Below are positions 13,436 through 61,354 of a stretch of DNA of 64,000 nucleotides, one piece after another. Every line of letters begins with the position of its first letter. The stretch's first letter is position 1. Location of the stretch: NCBI GenBank assembly GCA_030374765.1, contig JARGXX010000100.1:1364001-1428000 (forward strand), read 5' to 3'. The notes beneath the pieces were generated by a model. That model saw nothing but the letters and a program-made list of their open reading frames with translations. It ran no database searches and was not told the DNA's origin. The stretch comes from Agarophyton chilense (taxonomy: Eukaryota; Rhodophyta; Florideophyceae; Gracilariales; Gracilariaceae). The translations under genes were made by a program, and so were the position numbers.

Positions 13436-13452
13436 GCCACGGACTTTACGTA

Positions 13453-16194
13453 ATGAACCTCAAGGAAGAAGAACAGACACAAGCCATGGTGGTGGATGCC
13501 TTCAATAACAATCAAGATCTCGCTCGAGAATGGCACGCACGCACAGGCCACTTACATCCAGACCGCTACCAACAACTGGCCAAAACTCTTAAGTCCGTCC
13601 CTTTCTTCCCACGAAAAACCCTGGATACACTAAACTGTGTTCCTTGTATCACTGGAAAAATGAAACGACACCCGGTAACCAGGAGATCTCGATCTGTATC
13701 TACATTAAAGCCACTTGAATTAATCCACATGGATATCTCAGGGAAGGTTACTCCATCACTTTCGGGTGCAATCTATGCGCTGGCCATCTTGGATGATTGG
13801 ACCTCCAAGTCTGATGTTTACTTTCTAAAAGACAAGACTAGCACAACGGTTCTCAAACATCTGGATTGGTACAAGCGGAGATCAGAGTTAGAGTTGAACA
13901 ACTCTTGTCGCCTCAAGAATATTCGTCTGGACGGGGCAGGCGAACACAAGAGCACAGCGTTGGATAACTTTTGTTTCGATAACGGTATCAACATGGACTA
14001 CTCCCCCGCTTACGCCTTACAGAGCAACGGAGCGGCTGAAAGATTGATCCAAGAGCATTGGACGAGGACGCGCGTATTACTGTTCGCCAGCAAGCTTCCG
14101 TTTTCATTTTGGGCTGAAGCTATGAACCACGCAAACTGGCTCAGGAATCGTGCGCTTTCCTCACGCATACAAGGTCGGATACCAATGCTGGAGTGGGATC
14201 AAAATGTCAAAGTGGACTTCACAAATGTCCCCACCTTTGGACAACCTGGATACGCTTTCATATACCGCTCGAAGACGGCTGCGAATAAGAAGTTTCTTCC
14301 ACGCTCCGTATTCGCTCACTTCCTCGGAATGCAGAGTGATGTGACACTCCTTCGGATTTTCGTACCGGAAAAGATTTCGGTTATTACTTGTCGAACTTTG
14401 GACTTCAAGTTACTGAACTCTTCGCCTCTTCCAAGTCTTACTTCATTATTAGAAGGGATCTCGAGACAGCAAGAAATCGAGGAATCCACCACAACTCAAT
14501 ACAATGATGAGAGTCCAGATCTCGAGGAACACATGGTCACCGCGTTCACTGTAACATCGCACAACTTCCCGAACGTATGGGTCTCCAAGAAAACTGTAGA
14601 AGACCCCCATGTTCCAAGCAGTTTCAAAGATGCTTGCAAGGATCCTGGTTGGTGCGATGCAATCGACCGTGAAATGAACGCACTCACTCGACGAAACACT
14701 TGGGAACTAATTCCGCGAGAGCTCTGGATGAAACCAGTCCCCTACACCTGGGTATTCAAAGAAAAAATGCTAGATGGTATCGGTAAAAAGTTTCTGAAGA
14801 AGGCACGCTGTTGTCTACGGGGAGACAAACAGAAGCCCTTCGTAGACTTCGACCCGCATAAAAACTATGCTCCTGTCGCCTGTCATGAGTCTCTTCGGAT
14901 TCTCTTGGCCTTCGCCGCCGCCCACAACTTAATTCTGGAAGGAGCAGACATATCAAACGCATATCTCTATGGCAAGTTGGACATTCCCATCATCATGGAA
15001 CAACCAACAACTTCCACAGGTATTCAGGAAAAGCCAGGATACGTCTGCAAACTTCTAAATTCCTTATACGGAGCAGTGCAGGCAGGCATCATATGGGGTT
15101 CTCTCTTCTCGGAAACACTACTCTCTTGGAAGTTCGTCACATCTAACCTTGACACACGGATCTTTCTCTTCCAAGAAGACACCCGCTATCTTCTGCTCGC
15201 AGTTATTGTGGACGACTGCGCATTCGCAGCAAACGATGAAAGCCTGCTCAAACATTTCAAGAGCAAACTAGCCGCAACGTTCGACGTCAAACTCTATGGC
15301 GACTTAAAGTGCTTCATAGGTTGGAATGTTGAAAGATCAGTTTCTGGAATCAAAGTTATACAGTATGGGTACGCCGTGCAACTCTTGAAAAAGTTCAACA
15401 TGGAACACGCAAATGGCGTTGGTTCCCCTTTTCCCTCCTCTGCGGATTTTTCCTCTACCACTGCAAACGATGTTACTTTATCCACAACGAAACACGCAGA
15501 ATATAGGTCAGGAATTGGTGGTCTTTTGTACTTGGCTGTTTCAACTAGACCAGACCTTTCCTTTTGCGTCTCTGCCTTATCAAGGCACCTCCATAACCCA
15601 TCAGAGAGACATTATGCTCTACTGAAGAGATTATTTCGGTATGTGGCTGGGACCCTGGAATATGGTCTTCATTTTCCTTCCAACACACCCATAACTCCCT
15701 CTTCACTAATCGCGTATGCTGACGCCGATTGGGGTGGTTGTATTGAGACACGAAAATCTACTACTGGATATATAATCGTCGTCAACAACGCACCGATAAT
15801 GTGGAAATCGAAGCGACAAACAGTCATAGCCCTGTCTTCTACTGAAGCGGAATATGTCGCTCTTTCTACATGTGCAAAAGACATCTCCTGGATAAGGAAG
15901 TTGTTTTGGGAATTCGCACATCAGCGGCCATGGAGCGAAGATGTATGGTTCGAGGCAACCAAAGTTCTACTGGACAGCTCGGCCACTGTATCATTAACAA
16001 CGAACCCGAAGATTTCGGGAAGAAACAAACACATAGATATGAAAATGCATCATGTGCGAGACTTGAACCAAGAAGAGGTAATCAAGCTCGAACGCATACC
16101 CAGACTTTATCAAGTTGCAGATATCCTGACGAAAAGTGCGTCCCTCCGTGATTTGAGGAGGATGGTCAGTCTGATATCGTTGAACTCATTCTAA
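13453..16194 (+). CDS. Copia pol: integrase, reverse transcriptase, RNase H
   Basis: 913 residues from ATG 13453, but the frame is open further upstream and meaningful sequence (GTEISHGLYVM) begins near 13423, so it was once fused to protease. The integrase zinc domain has H-H-C-C spacing (WHARTGHLHPDRY ... CVPCITGK). The integrase core has aspartates in HMDISG and RLDGAGEHK and the glutamate in GAAERLIQEHW. RT carries FKEKMLDGIGKKFLKKARC, EGADISNAYLYGKLD, LNSLYGAVQAG and the active site AVIVDDCAFA, where Ile replaces the usual Tyr of YVDD. RNase H carries AYADADWGG, SSTEAEYVALS and KHIDMKMHHVRD. The frame is uninterrupted from integrase to the end. It relates to neighbouring gag-protease by a one-base offset. 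Confidence 0.95.
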   Translation: MNLKEEEQTQAMVVDAFNNNQDLAREWHARTGHLHPDRYQQLAKTLKSVPFFPRKTLDTLNCVPCITGKMKRHPVTRRSRSVSTLKPLELIHMDISGKVTPSLSGAIYALAILDDWTSKSDVYFLKDKTSTTVLKHLDWYKRRSELELNNSCRLKNIRLDGAGEHKSTALDNFCFDNGINMDYSPAYALQSNGAAERLIQEHWTRTRVLLFASKLPFSFWAEAMNHANWLRNRALSSRIQGRIPMLEWDQNVKVDFTNVPTFGQPGYAFIYRSKTAANKKFLPRSVFAHFLGMQSDVTLLRIFVPEKISVITCRTLDFKLLNSSPLPSLTSLLEGISRQQEIEESTTTQYNDESPDLEEHMVTAFTVTSHNFPNVWVSKKTVEDPHVPSSFKDACKDPGWCDAIDREMNALTRRNTWELIPRELWMKPVPYTWVFKEKMLDGIGKKFLKKARCCLRGDKQKPFVDFDPHKNYAPVACHESLRILLAFAAAHNLILEGADISNAYLYGKLDIPIIMEQPTTSTGIQEKPGYVCKLLNSLYGAVQAGIIWGSLFSETLLSWKFVTSNLDTRIFLFQEDTRYLLLAVIVDDCAFAANDESLLKHFKSKLAATFDVKLYGDLKCFIGWNVERSVSGIKVIQYGYAVQLLKKFNMEHANGVGSPFPSSADFSSTTANDVTLSTTKHAEYRSGIGGLLYLAVSTRPDLSFCVSALSRHLHNPSERHYALLKRLFRYVAGTLEYGLHFPSNTPITPSSLIAYADADWGGCIETRKSTTGYIIVVNNAPIMWKSKRQTVIALSSTEAEYVALSTCAKDISWIRKLFWEFAHQRPWSEDVWFEATKVLLDSSATVSLTTNPKISGRNKHIDMKMHHVRDLNQEEVIKLERIPRLYQVADILTKSASLRDLRRMVSLISLNSF

Positions 16195-22665: not shown

Positions 22666-22669
22666 CTAG

Positions 22670-23160
22670 TGTCTATGATTCCGAAGAATTGGCCCCACAT
22701 AAGGCCAACCTGACTTCATATGAGGCCAATTTTTCTCTTAGAAAGTAGCTGAAATACATTAAGGATTTAAAATTTTCAAATTTAGAGCGTTAAAGAAGTT
22801 TTTGAGTCTTCGACAGAAATAAAAACCACTCATCCTTATCATTGACGAAAAGACTCAGAAACTTGGACAAACATAGTTTTAAACTTTTTCTTTAAAACGA
22901 TATATTTATGGTGTAGTAAACTTATGTAGACGCAAGAATGACAGAAACAAAATATTTTAGCCTCAAGCGATCCTGGAGAAAAGGTCAAAAGTTTATATCT
23001 CGTTAAATCATCTAGTGTTGCATACTGCGAAGGTAGATGCCAAGGAAGGCAGAGGGCTCATTAATAAGTTACAGTTATGTAGAACTTGTAGATCTTACTT
23101 GTTGTGAAAGTAAAAAGAAATTAAAATAGGCCTTATATGAGGCCATAGGTCCAATGAACA
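22670..23160. mobile_element. MITE (491 bp) with CTAG target and GGCC palindromes
   Basis: Flanked by CTAG on both sides (22666-22669 and 23161-23164). Ends are inverted: tgtctatgattccgaagaat on the left, tgttcattggacctatggcc read inward on the right. Just inside each end are degenerate copies of the palindrome GGCCTCATATGAGGCC (ggccccacataaggcc and cttcatatgaggcc on the left, ggccttatatgaggcc on the right). The interior is AT-rich, non-coding, and aligns along its length with 60851-61350. The termini also match those of the 3.7-kb piggyBac-like element at 34141-37802, the likely source of transposase. Confidence 0.85.
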
Positions 23161-23164
23161 CTAG

Positions 23165-34136: not shown

Positions 34137-34320
34137 CTGGTGTGTAGACGCCCGGAGGATTGGCCTCACCTGAGGCCAGTTCTATTTTCCAAAAAAATGG
34201 TAAAAATCGCTGGTTTTCATACTGCAGTGGCGTATTCTATTTTCTAAGTGAAACACTAATTTTCTAACTATGTTCAACCTGCTATAAAGTACATTCTTTA
34301 GAGTGTTGTCTTCAGTAACA

Positions 34321-34395
34321 TCAGTTCAATGGTTTCACGACCGCTCGGAGCCTGATAATCACAGGGTTAAAATCCCACTGAGTTCAGTGTAACTC
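34321..34395 (+). other. Degenerate tRNA-like sequence
   Basis: A D-arm-like agttcaatggttt, a loop ctgataa as in tRNA-Ile with GAU anticodon, and a T-arm-like gggttaaaatccc occur in order over about 75 bases. The anticodon and acceptor stems do not pair well, so it is at best a pseudogene inside the piggyBac-like element. Confidence 0.35.
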
Positions 34396-34719
34396 GAAAA
34401 CTCTTACCGGAGCTCGACTAATTCTAAAACTTGTTATGGTTTAAGAACGCATTTGCGTCTTCTTGAAAAGCAGACAGAATAAACTGACATCCACTAAACG
34501 GTTAGTTTCGTGGGAGACCATAATATGTCTTGCAAGTTGAATAACGCGGATTGAATTAGTAAGTGGCTTAAGGTAATTTGAACTTGTGTTATATGCTTTT
34601 AAAAAATGCATTTATAAAGCATTAAAAACGCATGTTGCCACACGAACATAAATTCTTTTGATTAAATGTTACTCGAAACGTGATGAATGTCACGCATATG
34701 ATCTATAAAAAATCACGAC

Positions 34720-36240
34720 CGGGTTTACAGTGATATATATAAACATCCATATAATTGAACTTTTTACATTCTGAACCATTAAATTTTGATTTGTAAGTAG
34801 TTTTGCAGAATTTGAATCGTCCTTGATATGCTTGAGACATCAAAGAACCATATAGTTTCCTTCCTTTTCGATTGGTTTTCATTAAATGAATGCCTGTATC
34901 AGCCATATATGGGTTTTCTATTTTTTCTTCCTCCTTACATTTTCTTTTCATAGTTCGAATAGCATCTCAGTTGTTATCTAGTAACCCTTCTGCAAGATTA
35001 AAATATAAATTATGCGTTGTAAAATTGAATGTGTTCCCGTATGCCTCCTTGTAAAAATTCCAAGCATCAATCACGCACAATGAAACCAAAAAAGGAATCA
35101 CTTTAAACTACCGTTCTTTCACTTCGAACTTCTTTTGCATATTCAGAACATCTTGACGTGACATATTGTGCCTATCAATTCTTGAACAACAAGAATAGTA
35201 CTTCTCGCAAACCTCTGGAATAGCAAAAGAAAGCGGAAATCTCTTTGTTATTCCATCAGTTGTCCTCCATTTTTAACGAAAAAACAATTCAGGCAGTTCT
35301 GCGACGATGGACACGTGCTGGCCTCGTGCCGTCATCATGAGTTCGAAAAGATGGCTCATAAGAAACCTTCTGGTGGCTGTTTTTAAAAACCCAACAAATC
35401 CCATATCTCCTTTTAAAAGTTCTTCAGCTGTTTCAACAGATGCCAAATATGAATCGGCATAAAAGATTTGATCAGTTTCGAACCGATTCTCAACAAATTT
35501 CATTGAAATGGCTGTTTCGTGCGAATGTTTCGATGCAAATGGCTGTACATCTGATTGAGTAGCTTCCATCGTGATTAGTATTTTGAGAATATTACCACTT
35601 CCTCCACAACATTCTGTCTTTAATTCAGAACCATTTTCAGTTTTCCTATCAAGAACACTGGAGTGTGGAAGTACAATTTCAACCCAATTCCCTCCGCGTC
35701 CATACCAACGTGACATAATTTCGTCCACGCACAAAGTGCGTAATGGAGATACGAAAGCTTTTCGATGGTCATTTATAGCTTTCAAAAACTCAAAAACACA
35801 TGAAGACCTGCATTCTTCTGATTTTTGATCGTTTTCAGAGCCATTGAAAACGATAATTTCCGTATATGTTCAAACCGATTGCATAACATGATCTTTCCGA
35901 GCTGCAGAGATTCAATATATTTATAAAACTTGTATTTAGACCAAAATGATCTTCTTTGGAAAACTAAATCCGTGTCATTAACATCATCAAACCGATAAAC
36001 GTCAAAATTTCATCTCTTTTAGTCTGCTTAAGGTCTTTTCCATCCAGCCGGGAGTTTATAGATCGAACTATTTTTTAGAAATGAGCTACAGGAAACACCC
36101 ACATGAAGAAATAGTATGGAGAAAGTCCCGAGGGTGCGTGAATTGCGGAGATAGAATCTCCAAACGGTCCCGTGACTTTTCATTGATGAATTTAAACTGG
36201 ACCATTCAGAGTCAATGATCCATTTTCTGTTGTCCATTTT
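34720..36240 (-). pseudogene. piggyBac-like (DDE_Tnp_1_7 type) transposase
   Basis: From 36240 downwards on the minus strand: an N-terminal part ending in a KRDEILTFIGLMMLMT segment near 36010, typical of the family start; the 170-codon frame 35785-35273 with the first catalytic block TLCVDEIMSRWYGRGGNW, then the second IFYADSYLASVETAEELLKG, then MGFVGFLKTATRRF; and a C-terminal cysteine/histidine zinc region ending in YIYHCKPGRDFL (34951-34703). These blocks occur in the family order. The third catalytic aspartate was not located. Several stops and frameshifts separate the pieces. The enzyme would cut and paste the element using its terminal repeats. Confidence 0.75.
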
Positions 36241-36469
36241 CTCTAACGAAATTTCTCAAAGCATTCTCGTGTGTCACTTTTTGTCACGATAGGCCTCGGT
36301 TCTGCCTTCACTTCGACCAGGAAAGCTTGATAGATTCAATGCGTGACAGTCATCGACATCCGTTATGAAGAGCAACGTCCTCCAGGGAGGTTTTTGGGGA
36401 CTTAAGTTTTTTCCGGAGCCTCCGGCGTGCAACCTCGTTATGAGTAGGAGTAATCCGCTTTCACGGCGA

Positions 36470-37255
36470 CACCCGGAACGCCGGTGATGCACCGGCGGGA
36501 CCGGGTGCCATACACGTGGCCGCAGCGCCCGCGCGACACGTGGCCGCCAGATTGGCCCCTTTTGTTAGACCGACATTTAGCTATTTAGGATAGACTTTAT
36601 TTATTGTATTCTACGGTGACTACAGTACTTAGGCCGCCGGCCTCGCGGCCGCCGGTCCAGTAAAGTCTCCCCAACAAGGGTGATCTTGGTCTTCCAGATC
36701 TTGGCTCTGGGTCGAACCGCCTGCGCGGATATACAACTCCTTACGGAGGGATTTCCCGTGGTGCACGGCTTCCCAACCCCCTTGGACGTTCAAGCAGCCT
36801 TCGTGTGTTGGGTATCTATTCCCACTTTCGTGGTTCCGCCCGTGTATACGGTTTGCTACACCCGGCAGTGCCGGCTATTCCCGAGTCCCCTCTTGCGACT
36901 CGTGGTCAACCTCGCCCTCTTGCCTCCGTTCCCATTTGCCTTCCCTTTTCCTCCCCTTCATTGGGCAATTCCCGCTCTTGCGGCTCGCACTGACACCTGT
37001 CGTGCTCGCCACTCTCGTGGGTTTTGCCTCCTCAGAGGATACGCAAGCACCGCATTACGTGGATATTCTCGGCTTCTTTCAGCCTCCCTGCGCCCGTCGC
37101 GACGGTTCGGCTCCGGCTTACACCCGGCATTGCGCGCCGATCCCTGGGAGGGCTCTACCGCGCCGGTTACCACGTGAGAGGAAGATCCGGACGTCTTCGT
37201 GGGTTTTCCCCCTTGGGGGCATTGTCCTACACGTTACAGTAGGCTGCTCTTGACT
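36470..37255. other. GC-rich insert within the piggyBac-like element
   Basis: Composition differs sharply from both sides. It begins with a strong nested hairpin (CACCCGG, GCCGGTG, loop, CACCGGC, CCGGGTG; 36470-36507) and contains another GC palindromic stretch near 36632-36660. On the minus strand an aataaataaag lies at 36600, as in an LTR polyadenylation region. Frames such as 36680-37177 have no family and look like GC-bias artefacts. A solo LTR or other inserted element is likely, but I could not define a target duplication. Confidence 0.4.
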
Positions 37256-37806
37256 GTTCGAAACGTGGTCAGTAACACCAGCACCACCCATTTCCACATA
37301 TGAATTGAGGGCTTTTTGAGCAGTTGCATGAACAGTGACATGATCTCCGCCTTTCTCATAGCTAAATTTAAGATTGCAAACTTTATTGCGACTAGGTAGC
37401 TCGAATTTTTTGGTGACGAAAGTGTGTCTCTGATTTTTTCTGACAACAACGTCAACTTTTGTAACACTTCCGCAGACCAGTTTCTTCTTTCATTGCATGC
37501 CAAAAAAGTGTATACAGTCGCTCTCTGATGTGACGAGACGCGCTCGGGTATTTACTCTGTTTCCTGCAACACGTCAGGGATCCATAGGTGATGACATATT
37601 GGATAAATTATGAATGAATGGAGTAACGATTTTGTGTTTTTTACAGTTTGTGAACGATCGTTCGCAATCTTGGAGGTTAACGCCAGAAAAAAAGAGATTG
37701 TTGACAAAGTCTAGGTTCAAACATTTAAGGAAATTCAAAAAATGTACAAAATTATCGATGTTGTAATTTTGGTCTCATATGAGGCCAGTGGTCGTATACA
37801 CAATAG

Positions 37807-39674
37807 ACAGTGTAACGTATAGTTTACGAGTTATTACTTCAGAAAAAGAACAAAGTGCTTGCCTCCACACTCGGGGGGAATAACTCGGACTTTCGACGAC
37901 ATTTCTAAGGACTTTTCCAAAAACAAAGCTTTTTGGCTTCTATCACTGTATTTTCGCGCATTTGTGGAGATCACATAATATTGGGGATGAGCATTTGGAC
38001 TTCTTCAAGATATCTTGAAAGAGAAATGGTATTTGTGGGTACCGTAAGGCGTAGAGTGTTCCAGCATTGCATAAACACACGTCTACGGAATGACAGCAGG
38101 ACCTGCACTCTGTATTTCACCTCTGGCGTCGAAAGCCATGATGGTGTATTAGAAAAAATAATATAGTTCTTATAATTTTATTGGTTATTACGCTGCTTTA
38201 CACGCTGCTAGCAGAAATTAGAGTAACCTGAAACCACAAAGTAGTAATTTGCGAGTAGTAATGCGTTTCAGCTCCGTTTTGGAGGTTTCATATCTCTGTA
38301 GAAAGAGCTATAATGTCTCCCAGTTCTCTCTCGGCCGACTCCAACCAACAATTAACACCCTAAAACATTATTTTCCTTTGGCTTCGAGCCCTTAAACTTT
38401 TTCAAAAGGTGAGGCGTTTGCCGCCCGAGGTTCAGTGAGGTGCCTGCTGCTGGAACAGCAACCCCATACATTATAAGAAACCTGTGAAGCGTTTGTTGCA
38501 GTACGGGGGTCGAGTAAGGCGGCAGTCGCGAGTCGGAGCATCCCTTGTCAGCCCACGGCACTGATTGAAGCGCTCAAGGCGTATGCAGAAGACGTTCTGT
38601 GTGTATTAACGGTACTGAGTCTGTCTAGAGAGCCCTTAAGGATTAAAAAGCCTGTGACGGTTGTAAAGAATTTGGGGCAATCTGGGATTTAGTATGGGAC
38701 TAGAAACTGCCGCAAGTGGTGCCGCGTAACCTTTACCGCAAAGAGCCAGCGTCAGGTATAGGGTGAAGCATATCCTTTTGTTATTACCTCTCCTCGGGAA
38801 GCTTTGTAGGAATTGTACACGATTGCTTCTGGATAACGCAGAAGTTGGAAGTGTGAAGAAATCGTTACACATCCGGTGTGTCTGACCGGAATCCAGAGTG
38901 TCTGACCTCTAGTGACTATTGACATCAGTCTTTGCTTGCGTTGGTTTAAGAAGTTTATTTCAAAACGTTTATATCTCATTTCATGTACCTGGGGCATTTA
39001 GTAACGGAAAAGGCTTTAATACGCCGAAGTTTACTGTAACGTCTAGCCCACAGCGTCACACCAAAGATGGCGCCCACAGTATTCATCGTTACTCCAAGCA
39101 GTCAGTTTTCTTCTTTTCCTGAATGAGACATTTTGTTGTTTGGCCTTCGTCAGTGAACGATTGTTTGTCGGTAGTTGGTTCCGACTATGGAAAGTGCGTC
39201 AACTCCTCGCCCACAAATCCTGCGGAGATAGTTTACATCATGATCTGAATCTGGCCTGTTTGTTAACTTTTCGCTTAGATGTATGACGAAACGTCATGCA
39301 GAAGGTGCAGAGGCTCTACCGTCATGGCGTTCTCAACAAATTATTGTTCTTGCTTTGGTTCATGCACGTGATAGAAAGCATATCGCCTGATTGGTTGTTC
39401 ACAGTTTAAATCCAACACCCCCAAATGCTGCCCATCTCGTTAACGCGACATAGTTCTGTTATTCAGTAAGGACCTCTCAAAATATTTATGCCCATCCCCT
39501 ATGTCCCTCTCATCGGTAGAGACAAAGCACCATTTCCATATAGCGATGGTTCATAGTTCATCCTCTTCATGCCACTAGACGACTACGCGGCCCGCGCTAC
39601 ATGCTCCCCAAACCTTCAGAGAACACTCGTTTTTTGCGCTTCGTTCTCCTGCCACCTTTTTCTTTTCTCAGGCT
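37807..39674. other. Intergenic stretch before the GT92-type gene
   Basis: Short frames on both strands without family features. The last 200 bases are the presumed promoter and leader of the gene at 39675 (pyrimidine-rich tttttcttttctcag just before the ATG). Confidence 0.4.
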
Positions 39675-41447
39675 ATGAAAGCTTTTAATGTCATTCACCC
39701 ATATGCCTGTGATTCTAAGTTGTCCCCTTCTCACCCTTCGTCCAAATCGAAACGATGCCCCAATGTTTTTGGTCACCTGAAAACATGCATTCCCAAAGTT
39801 TTTGTCAAGCGAAACGTCCTGCTCTTCGGCGCCTTCGTTCTTGTCGCCGTTGTGCTTGTATCGCCGTTAGTGTCTCTGAAGGAATTTGCAACTCGAACAA
39901 GATGCCTACTCCACCGCGACCATTCTACCGTCGTGTTGTCCATGGATTCAGAAGCATTGGAACGTTTTCCCACAAACTGGTCACTACCACCACACATTCA
40001 CACCACCTACAAGATGAGTCGCGACAACCCGGAGGTGCAAGTCATTCTGAAGCGAGACTGGACGCGTCCGCATATATTTTTGCATTACGCGCGACCGCAT
40101 CCACTCGACCGCACCACTGCAGAGCTCTTCATTTTTGCCAATGGAGTCACGCTGGGTGATTTCAATCGCAATATCACAGTGGTCGGTTGTCTTGTCGGTC
40201 AAGATGTTTATCCATCCGAAGTGCTCAGGAGCGATATTTTCTCATGTCAAGTTCCGCTGCCCATTCAATCAGGCAGTCTTATCTCCCTCGTTATACATCA
40301 CAGCGACGAGATCCACCACCAAGTGCAGCAGGGCGTGAGACTCGCTCCACATCTCAACGCTAGCATTGAAGAGAATGATCTGGTTTCACTGTCGAATGAT
40401 ACGCATCTTCACCTCGACCAAACACACGACACCTTAATGTATGTCAGCTCTGAACAACGATACGAAGGGCTTGCAGATGATTGGGATCCAGATGCTGATG
40501 ACAGTCCCCCCCGATACGAAGTGTGTCTCGGAACACAAATCAAGCCTTTCACCAAATATCTTGATGATTGGATTGCGTACTACACGCGAATGGGAGTGGA
40601 TATGGTGTACGTTGCGGACAACGACGCTCCAGTTGATCTTTCTAAGAAGTACCAAGGCAGAGACGATGTGCAGGTGTTGTACTGGCCTTGGCGTCGGTCC
40701 CAAGTGCAAGGACTCTCTTACATCACCATTGCGGCACGGCCACGCTGTGAATGGATAATGATAGCTGATGTTGATGAGCTTCCAATGCTTGGGATCGGAG
40801 AGAACAATGAACTCGCTGGGAAGCAGGCACTGAGGGGATACTTGAGACGTCACCTACGCAGTGATTACAAGCAGTTTCATTTCCCATATTTGGTCATGCG
40901 AAGCTCTGGGCTTGTGAGAACGCCACCAGATCCGTTGCCAGAAGTGTATGTAAACATAGCCGATAACCAGCCGCAGAATGGCAAGTCCGTCGCTCGAACT
41001 GATCATTGGTGGAGATTTACAACTATACATATGTTTGGAGGGATACCCATCGCAGTAGCTCCAGTGGATTGGAATGCTTCCCGCAAGTACTACCCTCTTG
41101 GCAAGGACGATCAACCGATCACAGTACATTTCGCGCAACGCGCGTTCGAGGATATGATTCTGAAACAGAAATATGGTTCCGCTGCCACTGATGGCGCACC
41201 TGGCCCAAACCTGGACCTCGAACTTCCTTCCGAAATACCTGGTTGGGTCACAAAGATCGACGATAGCAAACCTTACTCCTACTTTCGGGACATGTATCGT
41301 GCCATCATGAAGCATCCATTCGAACTGAAGCAAACCCTCGTTAGAAGGTCTGAGGGAAAGAGATGTACGGCCAGACTTCACTCCGACAGTGAAAGACGGG
41401 GTATGATAGAAGAGAGATATAGATGTGGCTATGGAATGCAATATTGA
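39675..41447 (+). CDS. Glycosyltransferase family 92 type (DUF23), type II membrane protein
   Basis: 590 residues in one exon from ATG 39675. A basic N-terminus leads into a membrane segment at 48-67 (VLLFGAFVLVAVVLVSPLVS), then a long stem. The catalytic domain starts near 281 with YEVCLGTQIKPFTKYLDDWI, followed by YYTRMGVDMVYVADND, which is the family signature of a domain naming a distant acceptor. The metal-binding DxD-type motif is IMIADVDELP at about 361-370, and W-rich and His-containing segments follow (RTDHWWRFTTIHMFGG). Family members transfer galactose or related sugars onto glycans in the Golgi; animal members act on N-glycans. A role in glycan or matrix polysaccharide synthesis is inferred. 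No frameshift. A near-copy of the last codons lies just downstream (41497-41533). Confidence 0.85.
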   Translation: MKAFNVIHPYACDSKLSPSHPSSKSKRCPNVFGHLKTCIPKVFVKRNVLLFGAFVLVAVVLVSPLVSLKEFATRTRCLLHRDHSTVVLSMDSEALERFPTNWSLPPHIHTTYKMSRDNPEVQVILKRDWTRPHIFLHYARPHPLDRTTAELFIFANGVTLGDFNRNITVVGCLVGQDVYPSEVLRSDIFSCQVPLPIQSGSLISLVIHHSDEIHHQVQQGVRLAPHLNASIEENDLVSLSNDTHLHLDQTHDTLMYVSSEQRYEGLADDWDPDADDSPPRYEVCLGTQIKPFTKYLDDWIAYYTRMGVDMVYVADNDAPVDLSKKYQGRDDVQVLYWPWRRSQVQGLSYITIAARPRCEWIMIADVDELPMLGIGENNELAGKQALRGYLRRHLRSDYKQFHFPYLVMRSSGLVRTPPDPLPEVYVNIADNQPQNGKSVARTDHWWRFTTIHMFGGIPIAVAPVDWNASRKYYPLGKDDQPITVHFAQRAFEDMILKQKYGSAATDGAPGPNLDLELPSEIPGWVTKIDDSKPYSYFRDMYRAIMKHPFELKQTLVRRSEGKRCTARLHSDSERRGMIEERYRCGYGMQY

Positions 41448-46691: not shown

Positions 46692-48836
46692 ATGAATAAA
46701 GAAGAAGAAGAGAGACAAAACTATGGAGGCGTGAGATGGAGACGAAGAAGAAGAGGTTCTGGAGAAAACAGAGGCGCGACAATCGCAGGAGTGGAACGAC
46801 CCGAAAGAGTAACGGTTACTGTCGAAGATGCTCCAGATGAAGTACAAGTAAACGAAACTGGTCAGCATGTGCAAGATCCAGTCGTCGTCGCGGATTTGAA
46901 CGAAGATGAAATCATAACAGCTCCAACAATCATCGGTGGATCACTTCCAAGTACCACGAGAAGCACTGAAAACCATCCTCGGGCTAATGTCGAAGAAGAG
47001 ATGCCTGCTCCGATGGAAGTTGAAGAAGATGAAATCACTCCAGCTCCCGCACCATCCGCTGAGTCAGAGCTTCAGCAGGTTCCTACTTTTGCTATTCATT
47101 CAGACAGAAGAACAACCATCGCTCCAAGAGCTTGATTCGACCGTCACGCTTTTTGCCGGACGTCGAGATCGTGGATTGTATTGCGTTTACTACGTATGGG
47201 ATTCCGATGCTGCTCAAGCATGGATTGATCCAGCCACTCGTGCAAACATTCCTGAGTTTGAGACGTTGTCCACCGTAGGAACCCGCAGATGCAGAAGATG
47301 CGGTGAGTTTTCACACACCTATGGTTCGTGTCCGTACGAAGACTGGACGTTACGAATTCATAGTTGCAAGTGGTGTGGGTGTGTGCTTTTAGGAAAAGAG
47401 GTACATGGAGTCTGTTGTGGCATGAAACGAAATTCAGGATGGGGGGTCACATTTCGTAGACGCCATACTAATGAAGAAATACGAAGCATATACCGTTCAC
47501 GAGCATTCCAATCGAACTCCTTAAACTTGAATACGCTTTTTGCCACCACTCAAGCGTTTATGGACATGTCCTATGTCACAGGATGTGGCCCTTCGTTTCT
47601 CAGACTAGAAGGAACTGCAGCACTCGCTCTCCCGGCACACAGGCAGAGCAGCACGCGGTATAGTTTTCTTTGGGGCGCAGGGCCTCCTTCTCTGGATCCT
47701 GCTCACTATACGCGAGCAAACCTGCGAGCGTTTATCCAAGACATCACCGTGAAACACATGGTTCCGAGACTTTACGAGGTGATTCAGCCCAAACCTGATG
47801 TGGTGCGAGAGCGGTATCGAGCGATGCTGACAACGGAGCAAATGCAGGAACAAGAAGAAAATACGGTTGACGTAAGCTCGCAAGCTGCGAACGAGGGATT
47901 GATAGTGCGCGGATATGAGGGCACCAGAACTGCAACAGTGTCTGGTGACAACGTAGGTGCAGATCCGATGTCCGAAGATGCTCCTGGAGCTGGACCATCC
48001 ATGATGAGCACATTCGTAGTCGATCCAGGCGGTCTGTACCATGTCGAGGCCCAGGTGCCTCAGTTGACTGAGGGCACAGTTACGGAAGAACACGCAGCTA
48101 TCACAGGCGACACGGAGCAAGCAGGAGCTGCAGTAAACTCAAACAGCAACCCCCGAGTGCGGTATAAATTGCTGAAGCCGTCTTCTATGCTAGCAGAGAG
48201 AGGTACATTACATTTCCCCTTCTGTACCCGTATGGCGACGAGCACAAACCGTTTGACCTGCGTTTGTATCTGAAAGCACGAAATGGTACGCAAGAAAGCT
48301 TAGGGCTCGGTTTCGATCAGTGGAATCTTCAGAAGCTTACTTGGGCACAAAATGCAAAGCGTCGACTGTATTCAGATAACTTTTTTGCTTAATAGTGGTC
48401 CATTAATGCAAATGTTGTGGTTGCTTCGCACACAAACGAACATTGAAGACATGCGACTTCAATACCTAGAGCGGCAGCAGCAAGCACGCATAGTTCAAGA
48501 GACGGAAATCGTTCAAGCGCAAAAACAATCGTCTGGCGGAATGACTGACGCGCAATTCAGGCTTATGGGACGCATTTTGCTTCCTGATGACTCAGTGAAC
48601 TCTTCTAAGTACTGGAAAAGTAAACGACAGGATGTGCAAGCGATTGTGGCAAGAAAAGGAACCCCTTCGCTATCATTCATCACCGTCACAATGAACGTAT
48701 GGCGAGCGGATGTGAAGCGTTTAGGCATTGATACGACTCATCGGAGTGCTTTCACAGCACCAGCTAATCGTCCACGCCCGTTTGACCGCCCAGACTTGAT
48801 TGCCAGAGTTTACAACCAGTACATCAACGATAGATT
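46692..48836 (+). pseudogene. Helitron Rep/helicase, N-terminal part
   Basis: It starts at ATG 46692 (MNKEEEERQNYGG), acidic and Glu/Ala-rich, then shifts frame near 47120 into ELDSTVTLFAGRRDRGLYCV. A zinc-binding cluster follows (CRRCGEFSHTYGSCPYEDW, then HSCKWCGCVL, then HGVCCG), then a long linker. A frame change near 48210 gives FPLLYPYGDEHKPFDLRLYL, the Helitron LxYPLLFPxG block, and another near 48387 leads to LNSGPLMQMLWLLRTQTNIE. The Helitron-like N domain follows (MTDAQFRLMGRILLPDDSVN, then GTPSLSFITVTMNVW, then FDRPDLIARVYNQY). Three frame changes break it. Confidence 0.8.
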
Positions 48837-51065
48837 GTGAAAGACCTCGAAAAGAATTCAGAACAGTTATTTTGGTCCAAGTGCTTGGGACTTGCAGCAA
48901 AGCTGGAGTTTCAAGAACGAAACGTACCGCACCATCACATCCTGCTATGGTTAGAAGGAGTTGTAATAGAAGACGTAGATGCCATTGACAGTCTGATTCG
49001 AGCCGAAGTACCAAGTCCAGGGGAAGATGACGAACTGCGCGCCCTCGTTTTATCTATGCACCGCCACCGCCACTCTTCATATTGTCGTAATCGTAATCGT
49101 GCAGGTCGTTGCCGATTTGGGTACGATAGCACAATGATTGTCCAAGAAACATACATCGAAGAAGGAACAAACCCTGTTGTTTACCGAAGAAGAAATGAAG
49201 AAGATCTCAAAATCGTGCCATACAATCCTACTCTCACTAAGAAGTACCGCTCACACATCAATGTAGAGCGCACGCAGGGTGGAGGAGCGGTAGCGTACCT
49301 CATGAAGTATGCTTTTAAGCAGCCCAAAGCACAAGAAGTTGCTCTGAATGTTAGCAACCAGAATGAATCGGGTACAGATACCCAACAACCAGCTGTGGTG
49401 CAGAATGAAATCCGTGCCTACATGCGGGCACGTGTGGTGGGTGCCGTGAATGCTGCTTGGCGAATCTTTGAGTTTCGTCACGTCTCCATTCTGCCCACTG
49501 TGGAGCGACTTCCAATACATTTGGAGGGAGAGAGAACTTTTGTTCTTCGCAGCCCTAATGACATTCACACGGCTTCACAGCCATCAACACTGGAACGGTA
49601 CTTTCAGAGACCTGAGACATATGCCAGTCTTGATTACCTCTCCTACTATGAAAAGGTGCGCCTGTATCGAACCCTCCCAACTAGTGTACTCAATCAGTTT
49701 GATGGAGACAGTACTCAAGTGCCGAGAGACGATTGTGATCCGTCGATGTATGTCGTGGAGAGGTCAGAAGAGAATCAGTGCGTCGCCAGAATTCGAGCCG
49801 TCGTTCCTGCCGAAATAGAGCTTTTTTCACTGCGTTTATTACTTATGAATCGCGCCTCAAGTTCTTACGAAGATGCGAGGACCATTGACGGACAGCAGCT
49901 TTCCACATTTCGGGAAGCAGCGATCGCAAGCGGGCTGCTCAGTGACGGTACCGAGTTTGCCATTGCGTTTGAAGAGGCAGTTCAAATATACAGCACTTCA
50001 TCTGAACTGCGGCGGTTGGTAGTTACGCTGTATCAGCAAGGCGCAGATGCAGAGAAAATGATTGTTGATCACTGGGAGGCGCTGTGCAGCGATACTCACG
50101 CCGGGGATGAACAACAGCGAAAGCTGGAAATGTATCAACGCATTATTAGCATATCTGACCACCATGGAGGTCGTTTACTCCGTGAGCATAGCTTCTTTGT
50201 TCAATATATCCAGCAAAATGAGGAACAAACTGAGACTGATCGTGCAGTAGTCACTCGCCAATTAAGAGTGGTGCGAAATGCAAGCACACTGCAATCCAGG
50301 TATAATACATTGAAACCAACACAAAAACACGTCCTGGATACGATTGTGAATGCTTTAGAACTCCGACAGCAATCCGATCAAGATCGTCTGACCACTCCTG
50401 GAAACGTTTTCTTTATACAAGGATCTGCAGGCACTGGAAAGACGTATATGTTGAATTTGTTGCGGGATATATGTGAATCAAAAGGAATGCTAGTTGAATT
50501 GACAGCTACAACGGGAATCGCTGCATCCCTTTACGAGGGAGGTCGCACATTCCACAGTCTGATTGGTTTGGGTGTGGGAGATAAAGACAGTACTACTACA
50601 CAACTTTCACTGTTGTCCAAGTACGGTCCTCGTTCTCAACGAGCGGAACTTTTGAGCAATCTACAGCTACTCGTACTTGAAGAGGTTTCGATGCTCTCCA
50701 GAAGTTTGTTTGAGCTCATGGACGTGCTACTCAAAGACTTGCGAAGTTCTCAAACACAAACGCAACCGCCATGTTTCGGTGGACTGTCTATAGTGTTCGC
50801 TGGCGACTACTCACAGTTGCTTCCTGTTGTGCCTCAGTCGTACATGGAGCCTGAGGCGGGTGGGAACGTTCGAAGAGTGTATACAAACATTTTGAACGAG
50901 CTGCCATGGAAAAGCAATCTCTGGACAGATTCCTCTGTGCAAGTTCTTTATCTCACAGAACAAGTTCGCCAAGAACATGATCCGGGGTTTGCGGCTTTTT
51001 GCCTGCCGTTGCGCACAACACCATCTCGAGTACTATACCACCTCCACTGCAGTCTACTGGAGTGA
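48837..51065 (+). CDS. Helitron Rep nuclease and helicase, main open frame
   Basis: 742 codons without a stop, opening at a GTG because it continues the preceding frame. Rep part: LEFQERNVPHHHILLWLEG (residues about 23-41) supplies the HUH metal site, here three consecutive His. AVAYLMKYAFK (151-161) supplies the two catalytic tyrosines, Y154 and Y158, spaced by three residues. Helicase part: Walker A GSAGTGKT near 529-536, ELTATTGIAASLYEGGRTFH after it, Walker B LLVLEEVSMLSR near 610-620, and FAGDYSQLLPVVP. It ends out of frame near residue 720, where a run of T (gctttttgcc, about 50995) marks a frameshift. Confidence 0.9.
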   Translation: MKDLEKNSEQLFWSKCLGLAAKLEFQERNVPHHHILLWLEGVVIEDVDAIDSLIRAEVPSPGEDDELRALVLSMHRHRHSSYCRNRNRAGRCRFGYDSTMIVQETYIEEGTNPVVYRRRNEEDLKIVPYNPTLTKKYRSHINVERTQGGGAVAYLMKYAFKQPKAQEVALNVSNQNESGTDTQQPAVVQNEIRAYMRARVVGAVNAAWRIFEFRHVSILPTVERLPIHLEGERTFVLRSPNDIHTASQPSTLERYFQRPETYASLDYLSYYEKVRLYRTLPTSVLNQFDGDSTQVPRDDCDPSMYVVERSEENQCVARIRAVVPAEIELFSLRLLLMNRASSSYEDARTIDGQQLSTFREAAIASGLLSDGTEFAIAFEEAVQIYSTSSELRRLVVTLYQQGADAEKMIVDHWEALCSDTHAGDEQQRKLEMYQRIISISDHHGGRLLREHSFFVQYIQQNEEQTETDRAVVTRQLRVVRNASTLQSRYNTLKPTQKHVLDTIVNALELRQQSDQDRLTTPGNVFFIQGSAGTGKTYMLNLLRDICESKGMLVELTATTGIAASLYEGGRTFHSLIGLGVGDKDSTTTQLSLLSKYGPRSQRAELLSNLQLLVLEEVSMLSRSLFELMDVLLKDLRSSQTQTQPPCFGGLSIVFAGDYSQLLPVVPQSYMEPEAGGNVRRVYTNILNELPWKSNLWTDSSVQVLYLTEQVRQEHDPGFAAFCLPLRTTPSRVLYHLHCSLLE

Positions 51066-55303: not shown

Positions 55304-58300
55304 TTATCCGAAGTGCTTCTCAGAGCTCTTCGTCTCAGATAATTCATCGAAGTCGATATTCAGTCTTCCAGTAAACAGTGTTAGCTGTAGAGCATCAGTC
55401 AGACAGCTATCTTTCTTCGTTAGAGGATCGGCTAAGTTAACAGATCCAGGTATCCATGAGATTGATTCCACACTGCCAGTCTCGAACTCAAAGCGGATGC
55501 TGCTAACGTCTCCCCTGATTGACTTGTCTATGGACTTTTTCTGCGTAGACATCGAAGTAAACAAGTCTTTGGAGTCGACAAGGATTCGTAGCTTAATTTC
55601 CATGTCCAGTAGTTCTCGATAGGCGTTCCTGACATTCTTCCCTTCATCTATTCCTTCCCCTGCCGCGAGTATCTCAGCAGCTGGCACGCTTTTCACCGGG
55701 CGTTTTGCCTTGTGCGACATCCATGAGACGACATGATAGATGGCATTCTTAGTCATCTTGCCGATCAATAGCCCTGTGATTATTCCCAGTTGTCCAACAT
55801 CGTCGATGCGAGATGCATCAGAAAAGACGAGGATACTGAGCTCGTAGTTAGCCTTGTCAGTTGGCCGTGGGTATGCAATGACGGTGCCTAGCTTCTTAAG
55901 CTTTCTGACCGTATTGATCTGTTCGATCATGTGACTCACACATATGTCTGGTGCCTTCTGTTGGAGGTAGCTACTGTAGAACGAGCAAAGTGGTGAAGCA
56001 GCTGTTCCAATCCAGCTTAAAGAGCTGTTGATCGACGCGAAGGCAGCCTTTTCGATTTTGTTTAGGCTTTCAGCATACTCTTTCCTTCTGGGGCGTGATA
56101 TCGGATACTCCATGACAGCTTCCAGTTTATCTTCTGCGTTGGTCTCTATGGTGAAGTCACTGTTCTGTATCGTATTTATGCCAAAGAACCTGAGCTTTCC
56201 AGGACCATTGTTGACTACTCCAAACTTGAACTTATGGTTGAAGGCATCTATGAACTTCTTTGCCCGGTCTCCTTCACCTGCCACCTTGAGGTCATCTACG
56301 ATCTTGGCCACTATCAGCACTAGCCTTCCATTCTCTTTCTTATAGAAGAGCTGCGGGATGTACGCAGACTGCGATAGACCGATTTGGCGCATGACTGTGT
56401 CTGACGCGTTCTGCCACTTCGCGTTCGCATTGACTAGTCCGTAGGCAGCGGCCAATAGTAACCAGACATGAGTAGACCTCATTCTACTTTCTTTGGGCGG
56501 CCGAACGTAGACGTCTCTCTGTGCCTCTCCCGTCTGAAGAAAAGCAGCAGTTACATCGGCCTTGTGTAGCGTCCATCCGTGAAGCGACGCTATCGATTCC
56601 AGTATGCGCAGGCCTGTGGGCGGACACGTTGCACAGTCCTTGCTGAGCTCGTCCTTCATGTTGTCTTCATTCCCGTGCGGTGCGATGCGAGCTTTGAGTT
56701 TCAGTGACCCATCATCGTTGTGTTTGATCTTATAGAGGGTATGACTGCTTATTATATTAGCACGGGGCGGCACAAGCCGGCAAAACACTGGCTTGGCAGT
56801 TTTGAGAAAGCTGTCCTCTTCCTTTTTGTATGCATTGTACATTGGATATTGATCAAATCCTTGTGCCTGATGCTGAAGGAATGGCTTGTTGCCAAAGTGA
56901 TCGAGCATCGATTTGAGTACGGCATCTTCTTGGCTAACCACTGCCAGTGGCTTAGCGATTTGGCTGGAGTTGGCAGGCAGGCTGTCCGTGTAGTTCCAGA
57001 CTTCTTTAGTCATGTCAAGCACTTCAGTCCCACCATCGTCGTAGTGTAGATTTACATGCCCATCATCAGCTGCCGAGTGCACAGTCCCTGAGTAAAAAGT
57101 GTTATCTAGAGGCCAGAAGACTTCTACCCTGTCGCCAATATTGGCGTTGTTCCCACAGTCGTCGCCATCAAAATTGGCGTCGAGGATATCAGACTCTTCA
57201 TTTTCTTGTGTGTGTTCATGCACATCACTGATTGTCTTCAGTTCATCAATGTCGTTTGCTTTGCTGATGGCATCAAGGCCATCTTGAACGAGCTTTGAGA
57301 AGCTGGTGTCCGGGAGTGACAGTCTAGTGTCTTCAAAGGCAGCTGTAATCTCGCTGCCACCTTTGCCTGGTACAGTGACCGAGCGACCAAGTTTGTTGAC
57401 AGATGTCACTGTCTTCGGCGTGGACCAATGACCTCTCTTCTCTGTGTCCTTTTTGAGAAACACCTCTACCGTATCACCGGTTGAGAAGGGTGCTTCCTTG
57501 ATCGATTTGGAGTTGATAATGCGAGCTAACTTCCTGCGAGCAATGAACTGGTCTCTGGCTTCAATGATTTCTGCAGGAACGGTGGTATCGGTAGGTTTGT
57601 TTGCGACTGGTTTCGTGAAGCCCTTTGCTAACTCGAATGCCGATAGTTGGTCGTTGCCATACAGGTCATTAGATATGGTCACTGCTTTGTATGCTGCGAG
57701 GACAGGGTCAAAGGAGTCTCCAGCTTCAGATTTGAGTCGAAGATACACGCTCCTTATGATCATGTGCTTGGACTCGATCGCGTTTTTAGCATGACGGCGT
57801 GGTGCAACGGAGTGCAGGGGTATTGCGATCGAGTCACAATAATCTTTGAATGCTCCGACCATAAAGGCCTTGTCTCCTCGAATAGCATCTGGGTACCAGA
57901 AGGCAGACACCCAGCTGGCTTCAAATCCAATGACAGCTTCGCGAAGAGCCGTAGATGACACAACATAGGCCGCCGAATACCCCGACACCAAGTCCATACA
58001 GTGCATCAAGCACAGTTGATCCAAGAACAGATGATCAACACAGACTACATCATTAAATGACTGGGATAGTGTGCTTATGGAGACTTTGCGTGTAGGCGGA
58101 GGTACTGCAGTTGATCGGCAGGCCGTGCAACTTGCCACGATTTCAGCAACATACCTTGCAACAGCATGGTTCCACAGACCGTTGCGCTGTAGCAAGAGCT
58201 TGAAGTCGCTGAAGCATGCATGTCCGCAGACATGCTTATGGACCTTGTCCACAATAGCCTTCACATCGGACCAAGGTGACTTCTCAAGTGTCACTGCCGA

Positions 58301-59749
58301 TAGACAATACAACGTCGAGCCGAGGTACTTCGTTGACGAGGTGAACCTGTCAACAGGTATGTAACTAAGGAACCCAACATCTATGATGGAGATGGAATCG
58401 GGCTCGCCGGCGGAGTCGAAGCATAGTGCATTACGTCCGAGATGCACAATGTTAGCTTTGCGGGTGACATTGCGCCCGATCACCCATTGCGAGGAGCCTT
58501 CAAGGACTAGGTGGGTGATTTTGATGATCGTGCCATTGTCGGAGGTGGCCTTAAGTACAACTGAGCCAAGAATTCCTCTTTGAGGACTTGCGTGTTGGCG
58601 AGTGCCATACTGCCATCGAGTGTGTCCATCCAATGAGTCGGGAATCTTGTCCAGAGCTCCATCAACAGTAACACCAAGTTCTTGAGACAAGAGTCGTAAC
58701 TCGACTTGGCCAATCGCCGAGTAAGGCGCACCGTCGTCTACGAGAGGACCAAGCTTGTCGGGAACAGAGCCGACATTAACGTTCGCTGTAGAGCAGACAA
58801 GGGTGGCCGAGTTGAAAGAAACCGTCTTGTAGCCATCAGTTGTGACCTTTGTGCCACTGCTAGAACCATAACGACCAGGTTTCGATGAAACGGGTGCATC
58901 AAAGCTGCGAACATGGGGTGGTAGAGACCCGTCAGGGTTGTGGTTTCTCTTCCAGTGGCCGTACTTGCCGCACGTGTCGCAAGGATACTTCATCGTTGGC
59001 GACATACCCCTCGAGCGACCACGGTCATGACGGTTGGAGTTGCGAGGCGGAATCTGGGCAGCACTCGCCGAGAGAGGTTGAGATTTTGGCGAACCTGTGG
59101 CAGCATTGTGAACATCGTCACACTGCCGGAGCACTGAGGCTATTTTCTCGTACTTCACTGTGTTCAGGTAGTCCGTTGTCGTGGCTTCCGATGTCAACGT
59201 ACTGTCCGTTGAAGCCGCCGCCAACACGGAGACACGCTGTCCGTTCTCAACCGCCGAGTTTGCCAACAGCATGAACGCGGTGAGAGCTTCAGGAAGCTTG
59301 GCAGTTCCTGATTGAGCATTAAACTTTGATGCCTGAGCGTCGAATCTGAGTTCGAAATTCTTGAAGGATTCATTCGTGGCACGCTTAACTTGAAGCAGAC
59401 CAATAAAGTTAGCATAGACTTCACTGACAACCGAGAGGGAATCTCGCTTGTATATAGCCTTAACTATCGATTCTGCACCCGTATCCGAGGCCACGTCGGT
59501 ATCTGGGATTGCAGAGCACAAGTCTCTCGCTCTACCGTACAGTTGAGACTTTAACATAATCCCGCGCAAGGCTACCGGGATCTTATTGGAGTTGGAGTCT
59601 GGTAGCGTATTGTGAAACGCAGTCCAGAGCGAGACTGATTTAGCATAGTCTTCTTGGTTTCCTTTGCCATCCGTCCAGGGAACGTTCTTGATATCCCATG
59701 AGAACCTTGGACGGTTAGGAGTAGTTGAAGAACCAGGTGCTGGGCCCAT
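55304..59749 (-). CDS. Copia polyprotein: gag, protease, integrase, reverse transcriptase, RNase H
   Basis: 1481 residues in one frame. Gag (about 1-300) contains CDTCGKYGHWKRNH at 257-270, a zinc knuckle with His in place of the last Cys. The protease site is PLVDDGAPYS (336-344), DDG instead of DSG. Integrase has HKHVCGHACFSDF and CTACRST (zinc domain near 510-550), the catalytic VCVDHLFLDQ, the middle RGDKAFM and NAIESKHMIIR. RT has LKARIAPHGNEDN, LHKADVTAAFLQTGEAQRDV, AAAYGLVNANAKW and the active site AKIVDDLKVAG (Ile for Tyr of YVDD), then LNSSLSWIG-type SSLSWIGTAAS. RNase H has ILVFSDASRIDDVGQLGI, PAAEILAAGEGIDEG and LVDSKDLFTSMS. The frame ends GRLNIDFDELSE. The polyprotein is predicted to drive reverse transcription and integration of the element. 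Confidence 0.97.
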   Translation of the reverse strand: MGPAPGSSTTPNRPRFSWDIKNVPWTDGKGNQEDYAKSVSLWTAFHNTLPDSNSNKIPVALRGIMLKSQLYGRARDLCSAIPDTDVASDTGAESIVKAIYKRDSLSVVSEVYANFIGLLQVKRATNESFKNFELRFDAQASKFNAQSGTAKLPEALTAFMLLANSAVENGQRVSVLAAASTDSTLTSEATTTDYLNTVKYEKIASVLRQCDDVHNAATGSPKSQPLSASAAQIPPRNSNRHDRGRSRGMSPTMKYPCDTCGKYGHWKRNHNPDGSLPPHVRSFDAPVSSKPGRYGSSSGTKVTTDGYKTVSFNSATLVCSTANVNVGSVPDKLGPLVDDGAPYSAIGQVELRLLSQELGVTVDGALDKIPDSLDGHTRWQYGTRQHASPQRGILGSVVLKATSDNGTIIKITHLVLEGSSQWVIGRNVTRKANIVHLGRNALCFDSAGEPDSISIIDVGFLSYIPVDRFTSSTKYLGSTLYCLSAVTLEKSPWSDVKAIVDKVHKHVCGHACFSDFKLLLQRNGLWNHAVARYVAEIVASCTACRSTAVPPPTRKVSISTLSQSFNDVVCVDHLFLDQLCLMHCMDLVSGYSAAYVVSSTALREAVIGFEASWVSAFWYPDAIRGDKAFMVGAFKDYCDSIAIPLHSVAPRRHAKNAIESKHMIIRSVYLRLKSEAGDSFDPVLAAYKAVTISNDLYGNDQLSAFELAKGFTKPVANKPTDTTVPAEIIEARDQFIARRKLARIINSKSIKEAPFSTGDTVEVFLKKDTEKRGHWSTPKTVTSVNKLGRSVTVPGKGGSEITAAFEDTRLSLPDTSFSKLVQDGLDAISKANDIDELKTISDVHEHTQENEESDILDANFDGDDCGNNANIGDRVEVFWPLDNTFYSGTVHSAADDGHVNLHYDDGGTEVLDMTKEVWNYTDSLPANSSQIAKPLAVVSQEDAVLKSMLDHFGNKPFLQHQAQGFDQYPMYNAYKKEEDSFLKTAKPVFCRLVPPRANIISSHTLYKIKHNDDGSLKLKARIAPHGNEDNMKDELSKDCATCPPTGLRILESIASLHGWTLHKADVTAAFLQTGEAQRDVYVRPPKESRMRSTHVWLLLAAAYGLVNANAKWQNASDTVMRQIGLSQSAYIPQLFYKKENGRLVLIVAKIVDDLKVAGEGDRAKKFIDAFNHKFKFGVVNNGPGKLRFFGINTIQNSDFTIETNAEDKLEAVMEYPISRPRRKEYAESLNKIEKAAFASINSSLSWIGTAASPLCSFYSSYLQQKAPDICVSHMIEQINTVRKLKKLGTVIAYPRPTDKANYELSILVFSDASRIDDVGQLGIITGLLIGKMTKNAIYHVVSWMSHKAKRPVKSVPAAEILAAGEGIDEGKNVRNAYRELLDMEIKLRILVDSKDLFTSMSTQKKSIDKSIRGDVSSIRFEFETGSVESISWIPGSVNLADPLTKKDSCLTDALQLTLFTGRLNIDFDELSETKSSEKHFG
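59737..59749 (-). promoter_or_regulatory. Primer-binding site of half-tRNA type, overlapping gag ATG
   Basis: On the element strand ATGGGCCCAGCAC starts 3 bases after the 5' LTR. Its complement gtgctgggcccat equals the anticodon-arm sequence of eukaryotic initiator tRNA-Met (CAU anticodon at its end). Drosophila copia is known to prime from such an internal tRNA-Met fragment. The first three bases are also the gag start codon. Confidence 0.75.
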
Positions 59750-59752
59750 TAC

Positions 59753-59973
59753 TAAGTAGTGAACAGTATTCGGGTACTAAGACAGTTCTAGGTCGAGCTA
59801 GTCGAGAAGTGTAGCGGAGGTACACGGTAGTCGGGTGACTTCCAGTAGCATCGTGCTGTGTTTAGATAAATGTTCTTAACTACTGCTATGTAATACATGT
59901 AGACACACTTTAGCGGTTGCCATGTAATATCTATTCTCTCGTGCATATTACATGTAGTTCCATGTCATTCATA
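59753..59973 (-). repeat. 5' LTR of intact Copia element
   Basis: 221 bp, identical by eye to 55068-55288, followed by the second cctgg. Confidence 0.95.
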
Positions 59974-60846: not shown

Positions 60847-60850
60847 CTAG

Positions 60851-61350
60851 CGTCTACACTCCCGTAGGATTGGCCTCACCTGAGGCCAGCTTGGCCTCAT
60901 ATGAGGCCAAAATTTCTCTTAAAAAGTAACTGAAATTCATTCAAGATATGAATTTTCAAGTTTAGAGCAGAAAGGAAGAAAACAAAAATAAAAACCATAC
61001 ATCTTTATCGTTGAGAAAAAGCCTCGGGAATCTATTTAAACAGAGCTTTAATGCTCTTCTTTAAAACGATATACTTCTGGTGTAGCATACTTAAGTAGTC
61101 GCAAAAAAACAACATCCAAATATTTTTGGCCTCAAACTATCCAAAAAAAACATGTTGAAAGGAAATATCTCTTTCAATCATCTAGTAATGCATACTTCAA
61201 ATCTTGAGGCCATCAAAGGAAGAGTGTTTGGCAATATGTTCCAGTTATGCAGAGCTTGTAGATTGCATTTATTGCTTTATTACAAAGAAATAAAAAATGG
61301 CCTCATATGAGGCCAATTGACCTCACGTAAGGCCATCGGTCGTATAGGCA
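60851..61350. mobile_element. MITE (500 bp), same family as 22670-23160
   Basis: Flanked by CTAG (60847-60850 and 61351-61354). Left end cgtctacactcccgtaggat; right end read inward tgcctatacgaccgatggcc. Two palindromes near the left end (ggcctcacctgaggcc, ggcctcatatgaggcc) and two near the right (ggcctcatatgaggcc, gacctcacgtaaggcc). The interior aligns along its length with the first MITE (shared ctttaaaacgatata, ggtgtag, tcatctag and others). No coding capacity. Confidence 0.85.
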
Positions 61351-61354
61351 CTAG

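Follow-up and report, generated by a model that had tools for sequence, protein, structure and literature searches.

The window analyzed here, a 64,000-base stretch of the red alga Agarophyton chilense (contig C100, positions 1364001-1428000), contains a large transposon-like element and two miniature inverted-repeat transposable elements (MITEs), which an earlier note had provisionally assigned to a piggyBac-like family inserting at CTAG instead of TTAA. A glycosyltransferase encoded in the window is 81% identical to an A. chilense protein, and further named relatives, from A. chilense, Gracilaria domingensis and Gracilariopsis chorda, show 53–57% identity, which places the host among the Gracilariaceae. 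The large element is read here, with a probability of about 0.88, as a dead copy of a red-algal cut-and-paste family whose transposase, a distant relative of piggyBac with a DDD triad and the same fold, selects and duplicates CTAG. As that note had reported, both MITEs are bounded by perfect CTAG, and the large element is flanked by CTGG and ATAG, each one change away (Table 1). The terminal repeats and GGCC block described as common to the three were also recovered, family ends being variants of TGTCTA(C/T)ACG(C/A)CC followed by GGCC-bearing palindromes; the exact termini vary between MITEs (MITE 1, TGTCTATGA and TGTTCATTG; MITE 2 start, CGTCTACAC). MITE 1 has diverged, with 73% identity to MITE 2, for which at least 40 genomic copies of 87–100% identity were found (best 40 of 275 candidates scored; 30 loci fetched). 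The MITEs match a transposase-bearing copy over roughly 58 bp at the left end, at the right terminus and in the GGCC palindromes, and share none of its interior.

The transposase reading of the large element is broken by stops and frameshifts. Its longest frame matches PF13843 (DDE_Tnp_1_7), in line with the piggyBac-type relic recognized in the earlier note; the remaining frames gave no match when tested against Pfam. Aspartates occur at the places corresponding to the DDD triad across its separate frames. A search of the genome (79.8 Mb, 135 contigs) with the relic 198-residue transposase piece returned 151 matches, the best beyond itself being 71% identical. Thirty transposase-bearing loci were fetched, the relic among them; loci of this type have both family ends about 2.85 kb apart with CTAG outside in most, and the 11 full copies with both ends found measure 2,766–2,875 bp. 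The boundaries proposed for the 3.7-kb element stand, while its size is not that of a full copy: the surplus is an inserted repeat of about 0.85 kb. This young, high-copy repeat of 854 bases has 40 nearly full-length genomic matches (97–100% identity, itself included), with six same-strand pairs spaced 9.2–10.5 kb apart, as long terminal repeats (LTRs) would be; it is probably the solo LTR of a large retrotransposon. Outside the unshared part, the large element is 81–83% identical to copy L005. The copy in the window has thus decayed and been interrupted; the family to which it belongs is about 2.85 kb long.

The flanks of the family were read genome-wide. The genome contains 77 copies of the exact left terminus, TGTCTACACGCCCGGNGG, and none of the reversed pattern. 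CTAG directly precedes 52 of these termini and TTAA none (all 25 non-CTAG cases were read), as the proposal of CTAG in place of TTAA requires. The preceding 4-mer is CTAG or one base off in 74 of 77; of the 25 non-CTAG cases, 22 differ from CTAG by one base, the others being TTCG, CAGG and AGTG. Two of the 25 (L100 and L101) have the same flank and may represent one insertion duplicated with its surroundings. Since CTAG makes up 117 of the 63,997 4-mers of the window (0.18%), its enrichment at element ends is far above chance. Counts by class (L001-L068, duplicates removed, at most two mismatches allowed in the terminal motif, which excludes among others MITE 2's own left end) gave CTAG at 36/52 ends for the MITEs and 31/40 for transposase-bearing copies; where both ends were found, CTAG stood at both in 12/23 MITEs and 8/11 transposase copies. 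The link between transposase and target, which the earlier note had left as an inference, is thereby seen on the transposase-bearing copies themselves. Three copies (L028, L030, L110) abut another copy's end at a common CTAG-like 4-mer.

Empty sites were sought by fusing the flanks of MITE insertions across one CTAG. Twelve MITE loci (L010-L021) out of 30 were used to search the genome, which yielded junction-spanning paralogues for L010, L011, L014, L019 and L021. All 20 paralogues fetched for these five sites cross the site without an element and carry the 4-mer once, as CTAG in 15 and one base off in five (CTAA, CTTG twice, CTAT, CTGG). A paralogue of the L021 site lies within the window itself (Table 1). 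Similarity of the L011 paralogue stops about 20 bases beyond the junction, and the filled L019 site is disturbed on the left (TTTG plus extra bases). The earlier note had proposed that a single CTAG at paralogous empty sites would confirm the duplication; from these paralogues it follows that CTAG is the target sequence, single at empty sites and doubled at filled ones.

Table 1. Positions of the family members and other features in the window.
Feature	Position	Strand	Remark
MITE 1	22670-23160		CTAG at 22666-22669 and 23161-23164
MITE 2	60851-61350		CTAG at 60847-60850 and 61351-61354
Large element	34141-37802		Extent by direct reading of sequence
Left flanking 4-mer, CTGG	34137-34140		One base off CTAG
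Left terminal repeat of large element, TGTGTAGACGCCCGGAGG	34141-34158	+
Subterminal GGCC palindrome of large element	34160-34180		Second copy at other end, 37769-37789
Broken transposase frames of large element	34703-36255	-
Longest relic transposase frame	35273-35869	-	PF13843 match, E 3.7e-10, 40.1 bits
Part of large element absent from copy L005	36279-37231
High-copy repeat, probably solo LTR	36372-37225		Within relic transposase region
N-terminal transposase remnants (KKLVxGSVTKVDVVV...)	37118-37551	-	Counterpart of barrel domain; portion below ~37232 is inserted repeat
Right terminal repeat of large element, TGTGTATACGACCACTGGCC on minus strand	37783-37802	-
Right flanking 4-mer, ATAG	37803-37806		One base off CTAG
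Empty paralogue of L021 insertion site, single CTAG	38755-39078	-	Identical over 37 bases across junction
Glycosyltransferase gene	39579-41447
Copia-type polyprotein (RVT_2)	13333-16194	+
Copia-type polyprotein (RVT_2)	55304-59776	-
PIF1-like helicase	48834-51065	+	May belong to Helitron

A second PF13843 family of the same genome provides a control. In the three copies sampled (L089, L090, L091; contigs C16, C28, C96) the element starts as TTAA followed by CCCTTTTGACCC in 3/3, and the right ends fetched read TCAAAAGGG followed by TTAA in 2/2. This family resembles the CTAG family in its PF13843 match, DDD triad and host, and differs from it in its ends, in sequence (19% identity to copy L006) and in having Lys at position 275 and Asn at position 440 of the piggyBac numbering. 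Across 3.4 kb the three copies show about 98% identity, and each contains a 690-residue open frame; they form a young family.

The transposase of L006 matches PF13843 with 152 bits (cut-off 22.4), and its triad (D363, D453, D575) aligns with relatives. The earlier note had held a non-piggyBac transposase in other copies to be fatal to its proposal; PF13843 is the sole Pfam family at E 0.01 for both L006 and L001, and no Tc1/mariner transposase was matched in either at that threshold. A C-terminal cysteine-rich domain (C676, C679, C689, C692, nearly or fully invariant in relatives) is present in L001 and absent from the shorter L006 frame. A PDB search with part of L001 as a single sequence gave no real match, and one with a profile of relatives matched piggyBat; an NCBIfam search gave no match above a cut-off. 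In structural alignment, the family is 16–17% identical to piggyBac (Trichoplusia ni) and piggyBat (Myotis lucifugus), from which it differs in an extra N-terminal barrel in the model. Ends of the piggyBac superfamily start with CCC. The transposase has the piggyBac/piggyBat fold; the family, in contrast, duplicates CTAG rather than TTAA, and its ends start TGTCTA; the CCC start is present in the control family (CCCTTTTGA). Because the protein fits piggyBac but the TTAA and CCC features fail, the family is classed as a piggyBac-related variant that targets CTAG.

Relatives were also found on contigs filed as viral or bacterial. The transposase encoded on L094, an IMG/VR contig, is 38% identical to P0002; about 215 bases ahead of its frame the contig carries CTAG followed by TGTCTATCCTCCCGACGG and then GGGGTTAATTAACCCC-type palindromes. 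By our own count 14 of its 18 terminal bases are identical to those of the red-algal TGTCTACACGCCCGGCGG, the start reading CTAG then TGTCTA. A 3.4-kb contig (L095) encodes a 42%-identical transposase of the same clade and has no recognisable ends. L094 is filed as viral and L095 under a Rhodobacteraceae metagenome-assembled genome; both are possibly misfiled protist DNA. Two further scans of viral contigs returned the L094 contig again, and a Foldseek search of viral proteins found weaker piggyBac-like matches in giant viruses, for example Sylvanvirus. A tree of 63 rows, built by a quick method, separates 50 rows forming the CTAG-family clade from 13 rows of the TTAA-type group with 100% support and a very long branch. 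As L006 and L094 fall in different main sub-clades, the latter nearest P0077 (Fragilaria) and P0102, CTAG use may be old in the clade if L094 is typical, the target having been read in two lineages only and the labels of the remaining rows being no evidence for it, and would then extend across the wider protist clade.

In piggyBac the target 4-mer is melted. Its central A is touched by N440 and its central T is held by Y439 together with V414 and L416; a hydrogen bond links the first target T to the last A, and the hairpin region is contacted by three omega-loop residues, R275, Y283 and K290 (PMC7351741). Residue numbers were fixed through the 6x67 alignment. Counted from the equivalents of D268 and D447, position 275 is Tyr in 116/116 matched clade sequences (4/120 unmatched), and position 440 is Tyr in 111 and Phe in three of 114 matched (6 unmatched), where piggyBac has Arg and Asn. 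The TTAA-type group has Lys at 275 in 40/48 and Asn at 440 in 44/45 ungapped rows. Tyr439 is retained in both (clade, 112/114; TTAA-type group, 43/45). The omega loop of the clade (351-375) is poorly predicted in the model. With a C:G pair, the outer target bases could still be joined by an N1-N3 hydrogen bond, and the Tyr residues at the R275 and N440 positions, together with an outer C:G instead of a T:A contact, may underlie the new specificity.

Described piggyBac elements mostly use TTAA (PMC3849761, PMC7351741), so that the CTAG flanks might be thought decayed or misassembled TTAA sites. This is scarcely conceivable given that no exact left terminus follows TTAA and that the control family does show it; nothing observed favours it, the presence of TTAA and CTAG families in one host means that the flanks are not accounted for by a bias of host or assembly, and a TTAA target with decayed flanks is ruled out by the empty paralogues and the terminus counts. 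That CTAG instead belongs to the terminal repeat, with nothing specific duplicated, would suit its near constancy at the ends of MITEs and transposase-bearing copies alike. It is nevertheless highly improbable: the empty paralogues carry CTAG once without an element, and no longer duplication beyond CTAG was seen by eye in the 30 MITE loci listed. The element-free paralogues of MITE sites rule it out. An improbable but less remote alternative is that CTAG is the target and only its central TA is duplicated, the element ending in G...C after a Tc1-type cut. Perfect CTAG on both sides yields the same sequence under either duplication, and 13 of the 25 non-CTAG exact termini retain the central TA. 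In copy L001, however, CTAA stands on either side, the pattern expected of a 4-bp duplication, and the left 4-mer deviates at its first and last base alike (ATAG, TTAG, GTAG; CTAC, CTAT, CTAA), which counts against TA-only duplication because the last base would there be element sequence. Enzymes of the piggyBac type also cut with a 4-nt stagger (PMC7351741, PMC3408717).

Several points weigh against duplication of CTAG by a piggyBac-like enzyme. Since CTAG is a palindrome centred on TA, the sequences do not allow 4-bp and 2-bp duplications to be cleanly told apart. About one third of the exact left termini (25/77) are not CTAG, three of them at least two bases off, and their origin by decay after insertion is assumed and undated; right ends were sought for seven variant copies and found for one (on contig C99, CTGG left and CAAG right). 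Seven of the 12 fused flanks had no paralogue among the best 40 of 182 candidates, and the paralogue of the L025 site is weaker (72%) and diverged at the 4-mer. On L094 the right end was sought and not found, so that one end alone represents it. The contact between T0 and A3 described for piggyBac cannot be met with another base at T0 (PMC7351741), which argues against a simple transfer of the piggyBac model to CTAG.

Copies of about 2.85 kb bearing the transposase would mobilise both themselves and the non-coding MITEs with the same ends. On the analogy of piggyBac, their enzyme would cleave at the end of the element and form a 4-nt hairpin, the donor site would be left with a self-complementary 5'-CTAG overhang, and both ends would be joined to phosphates 4 bp apart across a melted target, giving CTAG on each side. 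A duplication of 4 bp rather than 2 bp, with hairpin and overhang chemistry, would follow from this analogy.

No CTAG-targeting piggyBac element was found in the literature searched by title and abstract, outside which lie Repbase and most subscription papers. Pokey of Daphnia, another member of that superfamily, accepts some sites other than TTAA that have a central TA, and has copies inserted beside other copies, at TTAA; it differs in using TTAA at 88.13% and CTAA at 0.85% of sites, CTAG being absent from the table of that paper (PMC3849761). The domesticated PiggyMac of Paramecium is likewise piggyBac-derived and makes a staggered cut of four bases centred on TA, with different outer bases (PMC3408717). 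Unlike the present family, it has a host role in DNA elimination, conserves only the TA and is no transposon family with a fixed CTAG. Bacterial insertion sequences of the IS701 type, with a DDE transposase and YTAR (CTAG-like) 4-bp targets, offer a possible parallel. Known IS701-type members have repeats of 4–5 bp, with no consensus for the copies of the study cited (PMC8024623).

It is tempting to speculate, although we think this somewhat more doubtful than not, that a large, unnamed sister clade of piggyBac, present across red algae, diatoms and other protists, exchanged TTAA for CTAG in its entirety. The exchange would have involved a compensated change of T0:A3 to C0:G3 and fixed Tyr at the R275 and N440 positions, in a clade whose N-terminal Tudor/chromo-like barrel possibly steers integration to marked chromatin. 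As piggyBac is widely used in genome engineering, a natural family with its fold, a DDD triad and a palindromic, TA-centred 4-mer that is nonetheless CTAG offers a direct test of the melted-target T-A model. The family points to candidate target-reading residues, for which the TTAA family of the same host serves as comparison, and searches that require TTAA would miss the CTAG-targeting group.
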